Assembly: GCA_003567475.1 (NCBI GenBank)
Contig: PWZL01000074.1
Coordinates: forward strand, 1-44,243
Source of the DNA: Gammaproteobacteria bacterium
Lineage (GTDB): Bacteria; Pseudomonadota; Gammaproteobacteria; Steroidobacterales; PWYM01
Direction of reading: 5' to 3'
Length of the DNA stretch: 44,243 nucleotides
The notes beneath the pieces are model-generated. The model saw nothing but the letters and a program-made list of their open reading frames with translations. It was not told the origin of the DNA and searched no databases. Below, in pieces: positions 27,918 to 35,928 of the stretch (the stretch's first letter is position 1; every line of letters starts with the position of its first letter). A program made the position numbers and the translations under genes.

Positions 27918-28643
27918 ATGCCGTTACACACCCGCGCGCTGCCGAGCCTGTGCCTGCTGCTGCTCACCATGACATCGACGGGCGCGGCCTTCGGGCAGGA
28001 GGAGTCGAAGGCCCTGCCCGAGCGCGAACGCATCGCCATCATCGGCACGGGCAATGTCGGCAGTGCGCTCGGACGCCGCTGGGCGGCAACCGGACACGGG
28101 ATCATCTACGGCAGCCGCACACCGGACAGTGACCGGGTGCAGGAATTGCTTGCCGCCACCGGCCCTGCGGCCCGGGCGGCAACACCTGCCGAGGCGGCCC
28201 GCGAGGCCGACATCGTGGTGCTCGCCATCCCTTGGCGAGTGGCTGAGGACACGCTGCGCGAACTTGGCGACCTGTCCGGTCGGGTGGTCATCGACCCGAT
28301 CAACCCTTCGCGGTTCACAGACGGTCGGGTGGAGCTCGGCCACCCCTCACTCGGCGAGGCCCTTGCCGAACTGGCGCCGGAAGCGGCCTTCGTGAAAACC
28401 CTGAACACCACGAGTTATCAGAACATGCTCGAGCCGCCATCCGATCGAAGCATTACGATGCCACTGGCAGGGGACGATGCCCAGGCCCTGGCGCGCGTCG
28501 CGCGTCTGGTCGCGGAGCTCGGGCTGTCACCACGCGTGGTCGGTCCGTTCTATAACGCCCGCTATCTCGAGGCGATGGGCAACCTGTACATCTACGTCAA
28601 CGTGATCCAGCAACCCGACCTGCGGCTGGAATACCACTTCTGA
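27918..28643 (+). CDS. Exported NADP oxidoreductase, F420-reductase-like
   Basis: A 241-residue protein with a Sec-type signal (LPSLCLLLLTMTSTGAAFGQ) followed by a Rossmann domain. The dinucleotide loop is IAIIGTGNVGSALGRRWAAT, then YGSRTPDS, whose arginine suggests NADP(H). The rest matches the NADPH-dependent F420 reductase/FNO-like family: DIVVLAIPWRVAEDTL, VVIDPINP and KTLNTTSYQNML. The family is normally cytoplasmic, so the signal peptide is odd; a lipoprotein is less likely as no lipobox is seen. Its start is four bases after the MoeB-like gene. It is the first of three exported dehydrogenase-type proteins in a row. Confidence 0.85.
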   Translation: MPLHTRALPSLCLLLLTMTSTGAAFGQEESKALPERERIAIIGTGNVGSALGRRWAATGHGIIYGSRTPDSDRVQELLAATGPAARAATPAEAAREADIVVLAIPWRVAEDTLRELGDLSGRVVIDPINPSRFTDGRVELGHPSLGEALAELAPEAAFVKTLNTTSYQNMLEPPSDRSITMPLAGDDAQALARVARLVAELGLSPRVVGPFYNARYLEAMGNLYIYVNVIQQPDLRLEYHF

Positions 28644-28766
28644 CCCAGCCGCGCGCCGACAGGCCACCGAGGGCGGCGGCTGAGCGTGGCGGCGAGTGGC
28701 GGCATTTCGCCTGCCACGCCCGCTCCGGTACGATGGCGCGTCGTGTCTTTTCAGGAGAACAGGAGC

Positions 28767-29723
28767 ATGCGTGATCCTTCACTCCGCCGCCGGGGTCTTC
28801 TCAAGGCGGCGCTGGCCGGGACGACGGCACTGGCCGCAGGCAGGATGCTGCCTGCGTTGGCCCATGAACACGCCTCCTCGGCGCCGATCACCCGCGCCAT
28901 CCCCACCACGGGCGAGCCCTTGCCGGTCATCGGCCTGGGGACCAATGCCTATGGCGTGCAGACCGCCGAGGACATGGCCCCGCTGCGCGAAGTGCTTCGC
29001 GACATGTCGCGGCTTGGGGGTACGGTCATCGATACCGCCCATGCCTACGGACGCTCGGAAGAAGTCATCGGTGAACTGCTCGAGTCACTGGGTAACCGCG
29101 ATGACTATTTCCTCGCCACCAAGACACCGATCCGCGGTGAACTCCCCGATGTCGATGCCGCCATCCGGAGCTGCCTGGAGCGCCTGCGCGTCTCGCAGCT
29201 CGACCTCCTGCAGGTCCACAACCTCCACGAGATCGACCGCCAGTACCCCTACTTCCTCGCGGCCCGAGACGCAGGACTGACGCGCTACATCGGGGCCAGT
29301 GTCTCCTCGCCGGGGCAGTACGATGACTTCATCTCGGCCACGCGCAGGAATCGCTTCGACTTCATCCAGGTGAATTACTCGATCGATGATCGCGGCGCCG
29401 CAGAGCGAATCCTGCCCATGGCCGAAGACCACGGGATCGCGGTGCTGATCAACATGCCCTTCGGCGGTCGGCGCGGCGCGGCCGGGGTCTTCGCGCGGGT
29501 CGCCGACCGACCGCTGCCGAATTGGGCGGCAGAGATCGATGCCGAGAGCTGGGCTCAGGTCTTTCTCAAGTACGTGGTTTCGCATCCCGCCGTCACCGCG
29601 GCCATCCCGGGCACCACACGGCTGCGTCACCTGCTCGACAACCAGGCGGCCGGCCGAGGGCGACTCCCGGATGAGGCACTGCGACGCGACATCGAGCGTT
29701 ACTGGGATGCGCTGCCCTCATGA
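28767..29723 (+). CDS. Tat-exported aldo/keto reductase
   Basis: A 318-residue AKR-superfamily protein with a twin-arginine signal (RRRGLLKAALAGTTALAAG, cleavage probably near LPALAH). The fold's catalytic tetrad is in place: Asp in VIDTAHAYG, Tyr in the same segment, Lys in FLATKTP and His in LLQVHNLHEI. The C-terminal PGTTRLRHLLDNQAAGRG is a typical cofactor segment. The start at 28767 puts the Tat motif in the right place and follows AGGAG elements. Tat export of a folded protein allows cofactor to be loaded in the cytoplasm. Its stop overlaps the next gene's ATG (ATGA), so the two are coupled. Confidence 0.9.
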   Translation: MRDPSLRRRGLLKAALAGTTALAAGRMLPALAHEHASSAPITRAIPTTGEPLPVIGLGTNAYGVQTAEDMAPLREVLRDMSRLGGTVIDTAHAYGRSEEVIGELLESLGNRDDYFLATKTPIRGELPDVDAAIRSCLERLRVSQLDLLQVHNLHEIDRQYPYFLAARDAGLTRYIGASVSSPGQYDDFISATRRNRFDFIQVNYSIDDRGAAERILPMAEDHGIAVLINMPFGGRRGAAGVFARVADRPLPNWAAEIDAESWAQVFLKYVVSHPAVTAAIPGTTRLRHLLDNQAAGRGRLPDEALRRDIERYWDALPS

Positions 29724-30658
29724 GAGTCGGGCACTGGAACAGACGCCAACTGCTGGCGGCGCTGGGCTCGGCAGCCACGACCGCCCTGGTGCCGGCCGCG
29801 TTCGCCGCGCCGCGTGACGGCTGGTTTGGCCTCGATCGCGGGACGTTGACCGGCCAGGTCGCACTGGTCACCGGGTCCACAGACGGACTGGGGCGGCAGG
29901 TCGCCCTGGAGCTCGCAGGCCTTGGCGCCACCGTACTGGTGCACGGCAGAAACCGTGAACGCGGCGAGGCCGTGCTGCAGGACATCCGTGAGTCGGGGGG
30001 CGACGCGGCCTTCTACCAGGCGGATTTCGCCGCCCTTGCCGGCGTCCGCGGGCTGGCCGAGGCCGTGCGCAGCGACCACGAGCGACTCGATCTGCTGATC
30101 AACAACGCCGGCATCTGGCGCCGCGAAGGCGACGACACGCGCCACCTCAGCGAAGATGGCCATGAACTGATGTTCGCGGTGAACTACCTCGCCGGGTTCC
30201 TTCTGACCCATGCGTTGCGACCGCTGCTGGCGGCCTCAGCGCCCTCACGCGTCATCAACGTCGCCTCGGGCGCCCAGACGCCCCTCGATTTCGATGATCC
30301 CATGCTCGAGCAGGCATTCTCACCGAGACGCGCCTACGCCCAGAGCAAACTCGCCCAGATCACCTTCACCATGGACATCGCCGAGGCCTTCGCAGCTGAT
30401 GGGATTACGGTCAACAGTCTGCATCCGGCCACCCTGATGGACACCACCATGGTGCGCCTGGCAGGGATGGCCCCGCGGGCTACCGTGGCAGAAGGCGTGG
30501 AGGCGGTGATGCAGCTGGCGGTGTCCCCCGCCTATGCCGAGCGCGGCGGGCTTTACCTGGAAGGCACTGAAGAGGCTCGCGCCCATCCGCAAGCCTACGA
30601 TGAGGCCGCCCAGGCGGCGCTCCGCGCGCTCAGCGAGGCCCTGGTCGCCGCCGACTGA
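29720..30658 (+). CDS. Tat-exported short-chain dehydrogenase/reductase
   Basis: A 312-residue SDR with a twin-arginine signal (NRRQLLAALGSAATTALVP, ending AAFA). The mature part has the cofactor loop TGSTDGLGRQVALELA, NNAG in the active-site region, VINVASGAQ and the catalytic YAQSK. The motif and arrangement resemble retinol dehydrogenase/WWOX-like SDRs. Both this gene and its coupled AKR neighbour carry Tat signals, which is unusual for nicotinamide-dependent enzymes. It converges on the second TonB-dependent receptor with a hairpin in between. The substrate is unknown; lipophilic alcohols or ketones are plausible. Confidence 0.9.
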   Translation: MRVGHWNRRQLLAALGSAATTALVPAAFAAPRDGWFGLDRGTLTGQVALVTGSTDGLGRQVALELAGLGATVLVHGRNRERGEAVLQDIRESGGDAAFYQADFAALAGVRGLAEAVRSDHERLDLLINNAGIWRREGDDTRHLSEDGHELMFAVNYLAGFLLTHALRPLLAASAPSRVINVASGAQTPLDFDDPMLEQAFSPRRAYAQSKLAQITFTMDIAEAFAADGITVNSLHPATLMDTTMVRLAGMAPRATVAEGVEAVMQLAVSPAYAERGGLYLEGTEEARAHPQAYDEAAQAALRALSEALVAAD

Positions 30659-30721: not shown

Positions 30722-33235
30722 TCAGTTGAAGTTCATCGCGAAACGCAGACCATAGAGCCGTGGTGCCGGCAGATAGGCGTTGAACGCACGGCTTGGCGCG
30801 AAACCATCCGGCCGACCGAAATCCACATTGCGTTGCGCGGTGATGATCCGGTCGTTATCGAATACGTTGTCGACATAGGCCGTCAGCGTCCAGCGGTCAC
30901 TTTCCACGCCCGCCTGGAGATCGACGAGCACATAGCCGGGCAACCACGTCAGATTCGACTCGTCCACGTAGCGACGCGAGCGGTAGGCCGAGGACGCCTG
31001 GGCAAACCAGTGATTCCCGGTCGCCCCGAGCGGTCGACGGTGGAAGGCGCTGGCATTGACCGCATGGCGGGGACTTTTGGCGACGCGATTGCCAGAGAAA
31101 TCTCCACAGGCGTTACCAGCCTCCACCCGCACGATCGGCGAGGACGTCTGACCCGCCGGTACCCCGCAGGCAGCGAAGATTGCCAGGGCATCCTCCAGCG
31201 GCAGATCTGCCGGTGGCGCCCCCGGCCCCTGGATGAACTCTTTGAACTCCGCATCCGTCCAGGCGTAAGCCAGCCCCAGCGTGGTGGTGTCACTCAGCCG
31301 CCAGTTCGCGACCAGTTCCAGGCCCATCACCTCGACCTTGCCCGCGTTGGTGATACGCGAGGTCGCAAACCCCGTGTCGAGATCGATCTGCTGTACGCCG
31401 ATCTGCTGATCGGTGTAGTCGTTGAAGTAGACATCGGCGTTGACCACCAGCCGATTGTCCAGCCAACTGGATTTCAGCCCGGCCTCGTAAGCCTTGAGCT
31501 TCTCGGGACGGAACTGCCGACCCTCGAAATCGGTGATCTCCAGCGTCTCGTAGCCGCCAGGCTTGAAACCGCGCGCGTGACTCACATAGAACAGCACCTG
31601 CTCGCTGGCACGATATTCGAGCGTCGCACGTGGTGTCACCTGCCGGCTCGAATGCGTCGCGGTCTGCGGGCAGGCATTGATCACGCCGGGTGACAGCGGC
31701 ACGCGCTGAGGCAGGGCGGGATCGCAGCCAGGTTCCACGCGCAGCAGGGTGATGTCTTCGAGCCCCCATCCCGAGGTGAAGTAATCCACTTCGTCGCGGT
31801 TCCAGCGCGCCTGCAATGAGACGCGGAAGCGATCGCCGAGGTCACGATTCACTCCGGCGAAAACCCCGAGATAGTCGGTCTTGCGCTGGGTAAACACTGG
31901 GAATTCGACATCCTGCAGTGGCTGGGTGGGCAGAAAGAACGGCGGCCCCCCAAGGAAAGAATCGGGATTACGCAGCCAGTACTGACTGTCGTTGACCAGT
32001 TCCGCCGTTTCGTCGAATTTCTGTACCCCGGCGATCCAGTTGAACGGACCGGTGACGTGGGTCCAACGCAGCTCATGGTTGAGGTGACGGGTGGTGTAAT
32101 CCAGGCTCTGGTAAGCCGAGATCGCAAACGCGAAAGGATCGTCGACCGGAAAGTCGGTGAAGTCCCCATCCTGCTTGATGAGCGTGTCGTTCTGCAGCCA
32201 GCTGCCCATGTACACGAAGGTGCCGGCCTCGGTGGCCCAATCCAGCTCCCAACTGCCGATATGCTGGCGCATCGCCATGCCGGCTGGGGGTTCACCGGTG
32301 ATCGGATCAAGCCCCATCTGCACGTCCTGGACGCCCGCCCGGATCGGCCCGGTGAAGGTGGCACGGGTCAGCTCGGTGCCAGGCACCGGCAGCCGGGTGT
32401 TCGAGGGGATGAAGGCCGTCGGGTTGTCCGATTCCTCGCGATCGATGTACTGGTATCGGGTGGTCAGCGAGAGCGTCGCCGAAGGCTCGAAACGAAACCC
32501 CAGCGCGACCCCGGTCGACTCCTCGGCGCCCAGCGGCCCGCCGTTGACCGGGTTGGTGTAGTGACCGTCGCTCTCGAGATGGGCGGCATTCAGGCGAAAC
32601 GCGACGGTCTCGCCGACCAGGGGCCCCGTGAGCGAGGCGGTGTACTCGCGGCGACCGTCGTTGCCGAGGTCCAGACCCGCCCGGCCGCCGAACTCGAACG
32701 CCGGCGCACGGGTGATGTAGTTGATCGCCCCGCCGAAGGCGTTGCGACCATACAGCGTGGACTGAGGGCCTTTGACGATTTCGATCCTCTCGAGGTCGTG
32801 CAGCGCGAGGTTCAGCGTGCCTGACCCCCCTGGCAAGGCGAGGTTGGAACTGGACAGATCATGCCCATCGATCAGCACCGCGACACTAGGACGCCCGCGC
32901 TCGTTTTGCATCCCCCGCATGGCGGGACGGGTATCGTTCGGGAAGGCGCCCCGATCGAACGTGATCCCCGGCGTCAGGCGCGCGACGTCTTCGGTGCGCA
33001 GCAGGCGCTCACGCTCGATGCGCACGGTGTCATAGACGACGATCGACAAGGGCACGTCCTGCGCCCGTTCATCGACTTTGCGCACCGTGACGATGATCTC
33101 GTCGATGACACGCACGCCATCGGCGCGGGTTCCGGTCTGCGCCAGCGCCAGTGACCCTGCGCCCATGCCAGCAAGTGCCAGGCAGACGCCCATGGCGACA
33201 GGCCCGCGCGTCTGTGGGTGGTGTTGAGTATTCAT
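30722..33235 (-). CDS. TonB-dependent outer-membrane receptor (copy 2)
   Basis: An 837-residue receptor, paralogous to 1796-4306. A signal peptide (MGVCLALAGMGAGSLALAQ) precedes a TonB-box-like segment (DEIIVTVRKVDERAQD), the plug (RGMQNERGRPSVAVLIDG, VKGPQSTLYGRNAFGG) and a barrel ending in LYGLRFAMNFN. The plug and barrel signatures DVYFNDYTDQQIGVQQ and YTDAEFKEFIQG also occur, with small changes, in the first copy. The start has GAGGGA upstream. It follows the membrane protein gene by 66 bases, downstream of an operator-bearing region. The two receptors likely handle related ligands. Confidence 0.93.
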   Translation of the reverse strand: MNTQHHPQTRGPVAMGVCLALAGMGAGSLALAQTGTRADGVRVIDEIIVTVRKVDERAQDVPLSIVVYDTVRIERERLLRTEDVARLTPGITFDRGAFPNDTRPAMRGMQNERGRPSVAVLIDGHDLSSSNLALPGGSGTLNLALHDLERIEIVKGPQSTLYGRNAFGGAINYITRAPAFEFGGRAGLDLGNDGRREYTASLTGPLVGETVAFRLNAAHLESDGHYTNPVNGGPLGAEESTGVALGFRFEPSATLSLTTRYQYIDREESDNPTAFIPSNTRLPVPGTELTRATFTGPIRAGVQDVQMGLDPITGEPPAGMAMRQHIGSWELDWATEAGTFVYMGSWLQNDTLIKQDGDFTDFPVDDPFAFAISAYQSLDYTTRHLNHELRWTHVTGPFNWIAGVQKFDETAELVNDSQYWLRNPDSFLGGPPFFLPTQPLQDVEFPVFTQRKTDYLGVFAGVNRDLGDRFRVSLQARWNRDEVDYFTSGWGLEDITLLRVEPGCDPALPQRVPLSPGVINACPQTATHSSRQVTPRATLEYRASEQVLFYVSHARGFKPGGYETLEITDFEGRQFRPEKLKAYEAGLKSSWLDNRLVVNADVYFNDYTDQQIGVQQIDLDTGFATSRITNAGKVEVMGLELVANWRLSDTTTLGLAYAWTDAEFKEFIQGPGAPPADLPLEDALAIFAACGVPAGQTSSPIVRVEAGNACGDFSGNRVAKSPRHAVNASAFHRRPLGATGNHWFAQASSAYRSRRYVDESNLTWLPGYVLVDLQAGVESDRWTLTAYVDNVFDNDRIITAQRNVDFGRPDGFAPSRAFNAYLPAPRLYGLRFAMNFN

Positions 33236-34318: not shown

Positions 34319-35446
34319 TCAGTCGCTCGCCGCTTCCAGCAGTCCCGCGCCCAGTTCGCGCTCGCGTGCGACCGTGATCAGCGCGTGTTGAGCCACGCCG
34401 TGGACGTCACGCCACGCCTGGCTGAAGGTGTCGTGGCGCGCCAGCAGGCGCATCCCGGCGATCTCCGCGAGTCCGTCCACCGCGGCCACCGCCTGGCGCG
34501 TCGCCTCGACGGCCGCCAGGCGTACATCGAGCACCCGCTCAGGCGGCAGCGTCGGGCGCTCTTCGAGCAGCGCCCAGGCCGCGACGACACTGGCCTGGAG
34601 CGCTCGCCAGGCCGCCCGCTGGCAGGCCGTTGCCCGCGCCAGGCGTGCGACGCCCTCGCCCTCGACCTGACCCAGCCCGAGCAGCCTCTCCTGGACGTGT
34701 TCTACGGCGCCGCGGGCAATCCCGACGGCGACCGCGGCGAATGCCGTCGCGGCCAGCGCCATGAAATCGAAGCGATACAGGGTGCCGTCCAGGCGCGGTG
34801 GCGAGGCCAGATCGAAAATCCGCGCCGCCGGCACCCGCACGTCGCGCATCCGGATGTCCTGACTGTCCGTCCCGGCCAGGGCGTCGGCCTGCCAGCGCGG
34901 CAGAATCTCCACCTCGCTGGCTGGGACCGCCACAGCCACGACTCCCGCACGGTCGACCAGCCGCACGCTCGCCGTCACCCAGGTCGCCGCGTGGATCAGC
35001 GAGGCATACCGCCACTCCCCTTCCACGAGTACCCCGGTCGCCAGGGGCCGGGCCGTGCCGGTCGGTGCCCCGGAACCCGCGATCAGCGCCGCCTCGGGAG
35101 TGAAGATTTCGCGCGCGGTCGCCTCGGGCAGCCAGGCCGCAAACAGGCCTCCGCCGGTGCCGATCGCCAAAGCGAAGCCCAGGCTGCCATCGACAGCGGC
35201 CGCCCGCTCGAACAGCGCCAGCGCGGTGGGGAGGTCCTGTTCCAGACCGCCATACGCCCGCGGCACCCACAACTTCCAGAGACCTGAAGCCACCAGCGCG
35301 GCATGTACGGATGCAGGCAGGCGATCGGCGGGGCGATGGTCAGGACTGACGGCAGAAAGGGCCTCGACCACCGGCGCGAGCCGTTCGACCGGACCGCCTG
35401 CCAGGGCCGCCCCCGACGCCTGCCAGGCCTCCGGACGGGCCACCAT
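34319..35446 (-). CDS. Acyl-CoA dehydrogenase-fold flavoenzyme (HsaA/DszC-like)
   Basis: A 375-residue protein of the acyl-CoA dehydrogenase superfamily. N-terminal helices (HAALVASGLWKLWVPRAYGG) lead into the FAD-binding middle domain (GSLGFALAIGTGGG, IAGSGAPTGTARPL, WRYASLIHAATWVT) and a C-terminal helical domain of the Acyl-CoA_dh_2 type ending RDVHGVAQHALITVARER. That C-terminus is shared with flavin-dependent monooxygenases (DszC, HsaA, SfnC) rather than true acyl-CoA dehydrogenases, and no catalytic Glu is evident, so FMNH2-dependent hydroxylation is an option. The start at 35446 follows the YbhB-like stop by two bases, with GAGGG upstream. The flavin reductase partner is not in the window. 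Confidence 0.8.
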   Translation of the reverse strand: MVARPEAWQASGAALAGGPVERLAPVVEALSAVSPDHRPADRLPASVHAALVASGLWKLWVPRAYGGLEQDLPTALALFERAAAVDGSLGFALAIGTGGGLFAAWLPEATAREIFTPEAALIAGSGAPTGTARPLATGVLVEGEWRYASLIHAATWVTASVRLVDRAGVVAVAVPASEVEILPRWQADALAGTDSQDIRMRDVRVPAARIFDLASPPRLDGTLYRFDFMALAATAFAAVAVGIARGAVEHVQERLLGLGQVEGEGVARLARATACQRAAWRALQASVVAAWALLEERPTLPPERVLDVRLAAVEATRQAVAAVDGLAEIAGMRLLARHDTFSQAWRDVHGVAQHALITVARERELGAGLLEAASD

Positions 35447-35448
35447 GC

Positions 35449-35928
35449 TCAATCCCTCTGGTAGGTCCCGACCAGACGGTTCATGCCGATGACCAGCGGC
35501 TCGACCCGCTCGAGCAGCTCGCACATCGTCAGGCCTGCCGGCAATTCGGTGGCCTGGTTGAGCGCCAGCACCCAGAAATAGTAATGGTGGATGCCGTGGC
35601 CATTCGGCGGCATGGGCCCACCGTAGCCGGGACGGCCAAAATCAGTCGTCCCGGAGGTATAGGCTTCGTTGCCTTCGGACAGCTCGGTGACCGCGGCCGG
35701 AATGTTGTAGAGCACCCAGTGAACGTAGCCATACGTCCCGTTCGGCGCGATCAGGGGCGCATCCGGATCGTGGCAGATCACCGCATAGGACTGCGTGCCT
35801 TCGGGCGCATCGTGCCAGCGCAGCTGCGGTGAGACATCCTCCCCTTCGCCGGTGTGACGACTGGGAATGCGCCCTCCGTGCAGGAAAGCTGTGCTACTCA
35901 ATTGCATGTTCGACAGGGCAAATCCCAT
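35449..35928 (-). CDS. YbhB/YbcL-like (Raf kinase inhibitor/PEBP family) protein
   Basis: A 159-residue PEBP-fold protein. The conserved ligand-site segments are seen: PQLRWHDAPEGTQSYAVICH, DPDAPLIAPNGTYGYVHWVL and GIHHYYFWVLALNQ. Bacterial members of this family have no firmly established role. The gene precedes the flavoenzyme gene by two bases, so both form an operon. Upstream lies a gap of 83 bases to metH, with nothing clear in it apart from a CTGACCGGTTCAG palindrome-like stretch. Confidence 0.88.
   Translation of the reverse strand: MGFALSNMQLSSTAFLHGGRIPSRHTGEGEDVSPQLRWHDAPEGTQSYAVICHDPDAPLIAPNGTYGYVHWVLYNIPAAVTELSEGNEAYTSGTTDFGRPGYGGPMPPNGHGIHHYYFWVLALNQATELPAGLTMCELLERVEPLVIGMNRLVGTYQRD

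Follow-up and report, generated by a model that had tools for sequence, protein, structure and literature searches.

Three consecutive genes on one strand of a 44,243-nucleotide stretch of gammaproteobacterial DNA (the window, by which we mean the whole of the DNA analyzed) encode a protein like F420H2:NADP oxidoreductase (FNO), an aldo/keto reductase (AKR), and a short-chain dehydrogenase/reductase (SDR), each of which begins with an export signal; the trio is predicted to be exported, and there is support for a redox route based on NAD(P) in the periplasm. Enzymes of these kinds ordinarily use their NADP in the cytoplasm. To our knowledge, nicotinamide chemistry is held to be confined to the cytoplasm, rare pre-loaded enzymes excepted. 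Our leading but tentative reading, to which we give slightly less than an even chance, is that the trio forms an extracytoplasmic NADP(H) module and that a carrier resembling the NTTs (the ATP/ADP, or nucleotide, translocase family) provides at least part of its cofactor.

As read from the ORF list and the sequence, the trio occupies positions 27918-30658 (Table 1) and is preceded by a housekeeping run comprising hemA, prfA, and prmC (by ORF reading) together with two genes whose products Pfam and NCBIfam identify as a cyclophilin and a ThiF/MoeB-like protein. An earlier sequence-only reading had described three consecutive nicotinamide-type oxidoreductases, the last two of them translationally coupled, and both statements are confirmed: the ORFs lie where they had been placed and have Pfam matches and intact motifs, and the stop codon of the AKR gene overlaps the SDR start. 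For the AKR gene, the preferred start is ATG 28767, which has AGGAGA in front of it, rather than GTG 28686, the more upstream start given to the ORF mechanically. In the AKR, the Pfam match spans residues 55-305, and the motifs DTAHAYG, ATKT, QVHN, and IPGTT are intact (the first three aligned to 6kik); the SDR is of the classical type, with TGSTDGLG, NNAG, and YAQSK intact (aligned to 7djs); and the FNO, whose closest PDB relatives are the FNO 1jax and STEAP4, has intact GTGNVG and GSR motifs. The basic residue that follows the second strand in the SDR and the GSR motif of the FNO suggest NADP rather than NAD as the cofactor of these two enzymes. For the mature parts of the trio, dN/dS is about 0.08-0.16 in comparison with the related genome G002, indicating purifying selection.

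Table 1. Positions in the window of the trio, its start signals, and the adjacent receptor gene
Feature	Position	Strand	Evidence and remarks
FNO-like NADP-binding Rossmann protein, 241 aa	27918..28643	+	PF03807, E 1.1e-21; Sec-type signal at about residues 1-27
Likely ribosome-binding site (AGGAGA) for the AKR gene	28753..28758	+	Read in sequence; 8 bases upstream of ATG 28767
Aldo/keto reductase (AKR), 318 aa	28767..29723	+	PF00248, E 2.3e-34; Tat signal RRRGLLKAAL
ATGA, AKR stop/SDR start, 4-bp overlap	29720..29723	+	Read in sequence; translational coupling
Short-chain dehydrogenase/reductase (SDR), 312 aa	29720..30658	+	PF00106, E 3.6e-35; Tat signal NRRQLLAALG
TonB-dependent receptor	30722..33235	-	PF00593, E 1.9e-41; convergent, 63 bp from the trio

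The genome that contains the window has a second AKR-SDR pair (G000:C65; L092 720-2644), whose products are 74% and about 70% identical to those of the window and whose genes overlap in the same way, as they do in G002. Because both the pair and its overlap recur in this paralogue, the idea that AKR and SDR are chance neighbors is ruled out. In the second pair, the AKR has a Tat signal and the SDR a Sec-type signal, no FNO adjoins them, and a small ORF (173-679), PIN-domain-like by reading, precedes the two genes.

The N terminus of the FNO (MPLHTRALPSLCLLLLTMTSTGAAFGQ) reads as Sec-like, and those of the AKR (MRDPSLRRRGLLKAALAGTTALAAGRMLPALAHE) and the SDR (MRVGHWNRRQLLAALGSAATTALVPAAFAA) read as Tat-like, each with an RR motif and, after it, a hydrophobic stretch free of charged residues; TatC is encoded in the same genome (E 9e-66). 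All fetched homologues were scanned for signals by a mechanical rule, with RRR motifs excluded from the Tat score. By this rule, a Tat signal is scored in 53 of the 70 close AKR homologues and only a hydrophobic signal in 12 more (many of these miss the Tat score because of the exclusion of RRR motifs), so that about 65 of the 70 count as exported. Of 10 SDR homologues that do not belong to the exported group, by contrast, 9 score for neither signal type, and the same holds for seven more distant FNO homologues. The orthologues of the trio in G002, G003, and G004 likewise start with signals. The SDR signal is of the Tat type in the window, G002, and G003 and of the Sec type in G004 and in the paralogue on G000:C65; that its type differs between orthologues indicates that export has been kept while the route has changed. 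The signals first read from the letters are thus borne out, if by mechanical scoring, and mis-predicted starts, of which orthologues lacking signals would have been the sign, are ruled out by this conservation.

The trio is syntenic in G002 and G003, two genomes of the same genus, and all readable N termini there are signals (in G003 the trio is split across two contigs). G004 keeps the trio with a 3-kb insert between the FNO gene and the AKR-SDR pair, in which the ORFs read as a large gene for a penicillin-binding-protein-like product and a small one for a lipoprotein-like product. Synteny of the TonB-dependent receptor, to which the sequence-only reading had drawn attention, extends only to G002 and G003. 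The receptor gene is missing at the G004 locus, where an acyl-CoA-dehydrogenase-like gene follows the trio in the place where the receptor would stand. Lying on the other strand in convergent orientation, the receptor is a neighbor outside the operon; given this and its absence from G004, we set it aside as a functional partner and regard it as probably a bystander rather than a member of the module. Both the export of the set and the periplasmic redox route at which the sequence-only reading had hinted are supported, as the signals are conserved and similar sets recur elsewhere (see below); the link to the receptor is weak. An HsaA-like acyl-CoA-dehydrogenase-type protein is also encoded near the trio (window 34319-35524), and a distant relative of it adjoins an exported FNO in another genome (G171; L114 2853-3890).

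As the non-standard cofactor suggested earlier, F420 is unlikely because cofH has no match in the window's genome, which is 98.4% complete, and because the FNO scores 69.8 bits against NpdG (TIGR01915), below the equivalog cut-off of 149.8.

Of the 369 gammaproteobacterial genomes sampled, 69 encode Tat-type AKRs of the window clade. At many of these loci the neighbor is the same, a membrane protein about 430-480 aa long with a match to MFS_1 and sometimes, in several instances, also to the TLC ATP/ADP transporter family (PF03219). When one AKR-linked carrier was used as a query against the same 369 genomes, 57 strong matches were obtained in 50 of them; 30 of these 57 NTT-type carriers have one of 78 AKR genes on their own strand no more than about 260 bp away, an adjacency that spans 24 families (our own count from the tables). 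Both AKR and carrier occur in 38 genomes (Fisher p 1.6e-22 over the 369 genomes, kinship ignored). It should be noted that the neighbor caller was crude, that only the carrier was tallied among AKR neighbors, and that about half of the AKR loci are without an adjacent carrier. An NTT is found in all seven genomes of the gammaproteobacterial sample that encode an exported FNO and, above 150 bits, in none of the six that encode only unexported FNO, both being small and partly related sets. The genome of the window has a single NTT (G000:C40:10536-11786), unlinked to the trio, and four congeners each also keep one; all five genomes of the genus thus have the carrier, in no case beside the trio. 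An MFS protein beside an AKR of Rhizobium etli was considered as an NTT and rejected as not NTT-like. Other neighbors were seen as well: in two genomes of one family, an HD-domain/DUF3391 signaling protein occupies the carrier's usual place (L066 4910-6172; L079 4994-6256), and a PQQ-dependent dehydrogenase, another periplasmic redox enzyme, adjoins the AKR in G336 (L059 1922-3868). On Pantoea pPAT9B03, a PQQ-dependent dehydrogenase (L191 2402-4801) adjoins an NTT carrier and an AKR that has no signal.

Adjacency of exported oxidoreductases and NTTs is found across classes. AKR, FNO, and NTT stand in one run in five genomes from a single family of another class (G499, G522, G625, G393, and G507), and the FNOs of these runs carry Tat- or Sec-type signals. 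On Azotobacter chroococcum pAcX50f, the order is Tat SDR, MBL-fold protein, NTT, and Tat-type FNO; on Pantoea pPAT9B04, an NTT is followed by a Tat-type FNO; on a Catenovulum plasmid, a Sec-type SDR adjoins an NTT; and in Cupriavidus metallidurans, a Tat AKR does so. The deposited start of the Azotobacter SDR (L189 3026-3787) is probably wrong, as it is internal to a longer frame whose upstream part encodes a Tat signal (DRRKFLTASAGLGSGLVAGSLIAATTVLAQA). In the AKR tree, the window clade falls inside a supported group of 21 rows together with NTT-linked AKRs and those of the AKR-FNO-NTT runs. In the FNO tree, the window FNO and the FNOs of these runs are in separate groups; a single inherited AKR-FNO-NTT operon is therefore unsupported, and exported FNOs came into this setting more than once, in different lineages, so that the link is one of recurrence. 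In the open-access literature searched, we found no report of an exported AKR/SDR/FNO set or of its linkage to NTT carriers, and nothing on point for an exported AKR or SDR, for periplasmic NADPH, for an NTT with an AKR, or for a Tat-exported F420 reductase.

How could such enzymes come by their cofactor? The sequence-only reading had mentioned a pre-loaded cofactor. On such an account, each enzyme would fold in the cytoplasm around tightly held NADP(H), leave by Tat, and, like glucose-fructose oxidoreductase (GFOR), cycle the same cofactor molecule between an oxidized and a reduced substrate, the linkage to carriers then reflecting a substrate or some other need. The Tat signals of the AKR and the SDR, shared by nearly all close AKR homologues, are as expected on this account, as are the many AKR loci without an adjoining carrier. 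The Sec pathway, however, exports unfolded protein, and pre-loading therefore fails for the Sec-type FNO and for the Sec-type orthologues of the SDR; it also leaves unexplained why NTT-family carriers stand beside exported AKR, FNO, and SDR genes in separate lineages. We consider pre-loading possible for the Tat substrates, for which there is a precedent (GFOR, exported by Tat with pre-loaded cofactor according to a reference in PMC7317946), and unlikely, if deserving of some weight as the main rival of our reading, as the explanation of the whole.

A nucleotide carrier of the NTT type is the better lead. A family profile built from 14 carriers and searched against all PDB chains matches only NTTs (9j3n, E 3.6e-16; 9j3j, E 1e-11). 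The AlphaFold2 model of the carrier encoded in the window's own genome (mean pLDDT 87) aligns with NTTs at Z scores of 37.1, 35.2, and 35.0 (412-416 residues aligned); the next family, that of LacY, reaches 29.5. In Pfam, MFS_1 outscores TLC for most of the carriers; several linked carriers are above the PF03219 cut-off, and the own-genome carrier has no match at E 0.01. On the profile matches and the fold alignment, we place the linked carriers as distant members of the NTT family, for which nucleotides would be the cargo. Within that family, PamNTT4 is an NAD carrier that stands outside the main ATP/ADP clade and groups with uncharacterized bacterial NTTs, and a 2017 survey left the role of NTTs in free-living bacteria open (PMC5381601).

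The carriers might instead move another solute, importing a product or exporting a substrate, with no part in the traffic of nicotinamide nucleotides; the cofactor would then come from lysed cells or pre-loading, or dependence on it would have been lost. Their distance from characterized NTTs (16% identity to those with solved structures) and the better scores of MFS_1 leave room for such a cargo. Against it, fold and profile are nearest to NTTs, the three unrelated enzyme families linked to the carrier share only one ligand, the nicotinamide nucleotide, and the cofactor motifs of AKR, SDR, and FNO are all intact; we judge it rather improbable. That the trio proteins are cytoplasmic or membrane-tethered, their N termini being non-working signals or lying upstream of the true starts, is very improbable: the signal calls do rest on mechanical scoring, but signals of conserved type and diverged sequence are present in the orthologues, the paralogue, and homologues from other classes, TatC is encoded, and the unexported homologues lack such stretches.

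Three unrelated families with one common ligand are thus found exported and beside NTTs, some of them by way of Sec, and the simplest reading is that the cofactor is outside the cytoplasm and is brought there by the carrier. In the module that we favor, the AKR and the SDR would be exported by Tat and the FNO by Sec, and all three would use NADP(H) in the periplasm, drawing on a common cofactor pool. The AKR and the SDR would act on carbonyl/alcohol substrates. The FNO would probably exchange hydride between NADP(H) and a partner of the flavin type, as its STEAP relatives do with flavin, and could in this way recycle the cofactor. The NTT-type carrier encoded elsewhere in the genome would sit in the inner membrane and exchange nicotinamide nucleotide with the cytoplasm, thereby providing at least part of the supply. 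Counting against this scheme are the lack of linkage between carrier and trio throughout the genus, the AKR loci (about half) that have no carrier next to them, the separation of the FNOs in their tree, and the possibility that distant NTTs move another solute. The component families are each known, and exported nicotinamide oxidoreductases are a known kind of protein; transport of NAD(P) by the carrier, however, would make the system categorically new. We entertain, as a possibility about which we are somewhat doubtful, the more general proposal that free-living proteobacteria keep an NTT-fed periplasmic NAD(P)(H) pool that drives exported AKR, SDR, and FNO enzymes. If so, cofactor delivery to the periplasm by some bacteria would be what the widespread pairing of exported oxidoreductases and nucleotide-type carriers signifies, and the uncharacterized NTTs of free-living bacteria would gain a testable function.

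Among known systems, GFOR of Zymomonas mobilis is comparable in being a nicotinamide-dependent oxidoreductase that is sent to the periplasm by Tat, the location of the trio being predicted from its signals. GFOR, however, belongs to the Gfo/Idh/MocA proteins, binds its NADP tightly, and acts alone, whereas the trio is an AKR/SDR/FNO set with relatives paired with a nucleotide-type carrier, and its members are not all exported folded by Tat as GFOR is, the FNO and some SDR orthologues being Sec-type. The AKR-linked carriers resemble the NTT/TLC translocases (AtNTT1, Chlamydia NTT1, and PamNTT4) in PDB profile and fold; they differ from these three in belonging to free-living hosts, in their length of about 430 aa and low identity, and in standing beside exported oxidoreductases. 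Like FNO/NpdG and the FNO domain of STEAP proteins, the window FNO has an NADP-binding domain with GSR after the second strand; unlike FNO/NpdG, it is predicted to be exported, scores below the NpdG cut-off, and comes from a host without cofH. Finally, the window AKR shares the AKR domain, the tetrad motifs, and the C-terminal NADP-site motif with DkgA, DkgB, and 6kik but, in contrast to these cytoplasmic enzymes, belongs to a Tat-type clade with a conserved neighbor of its own.
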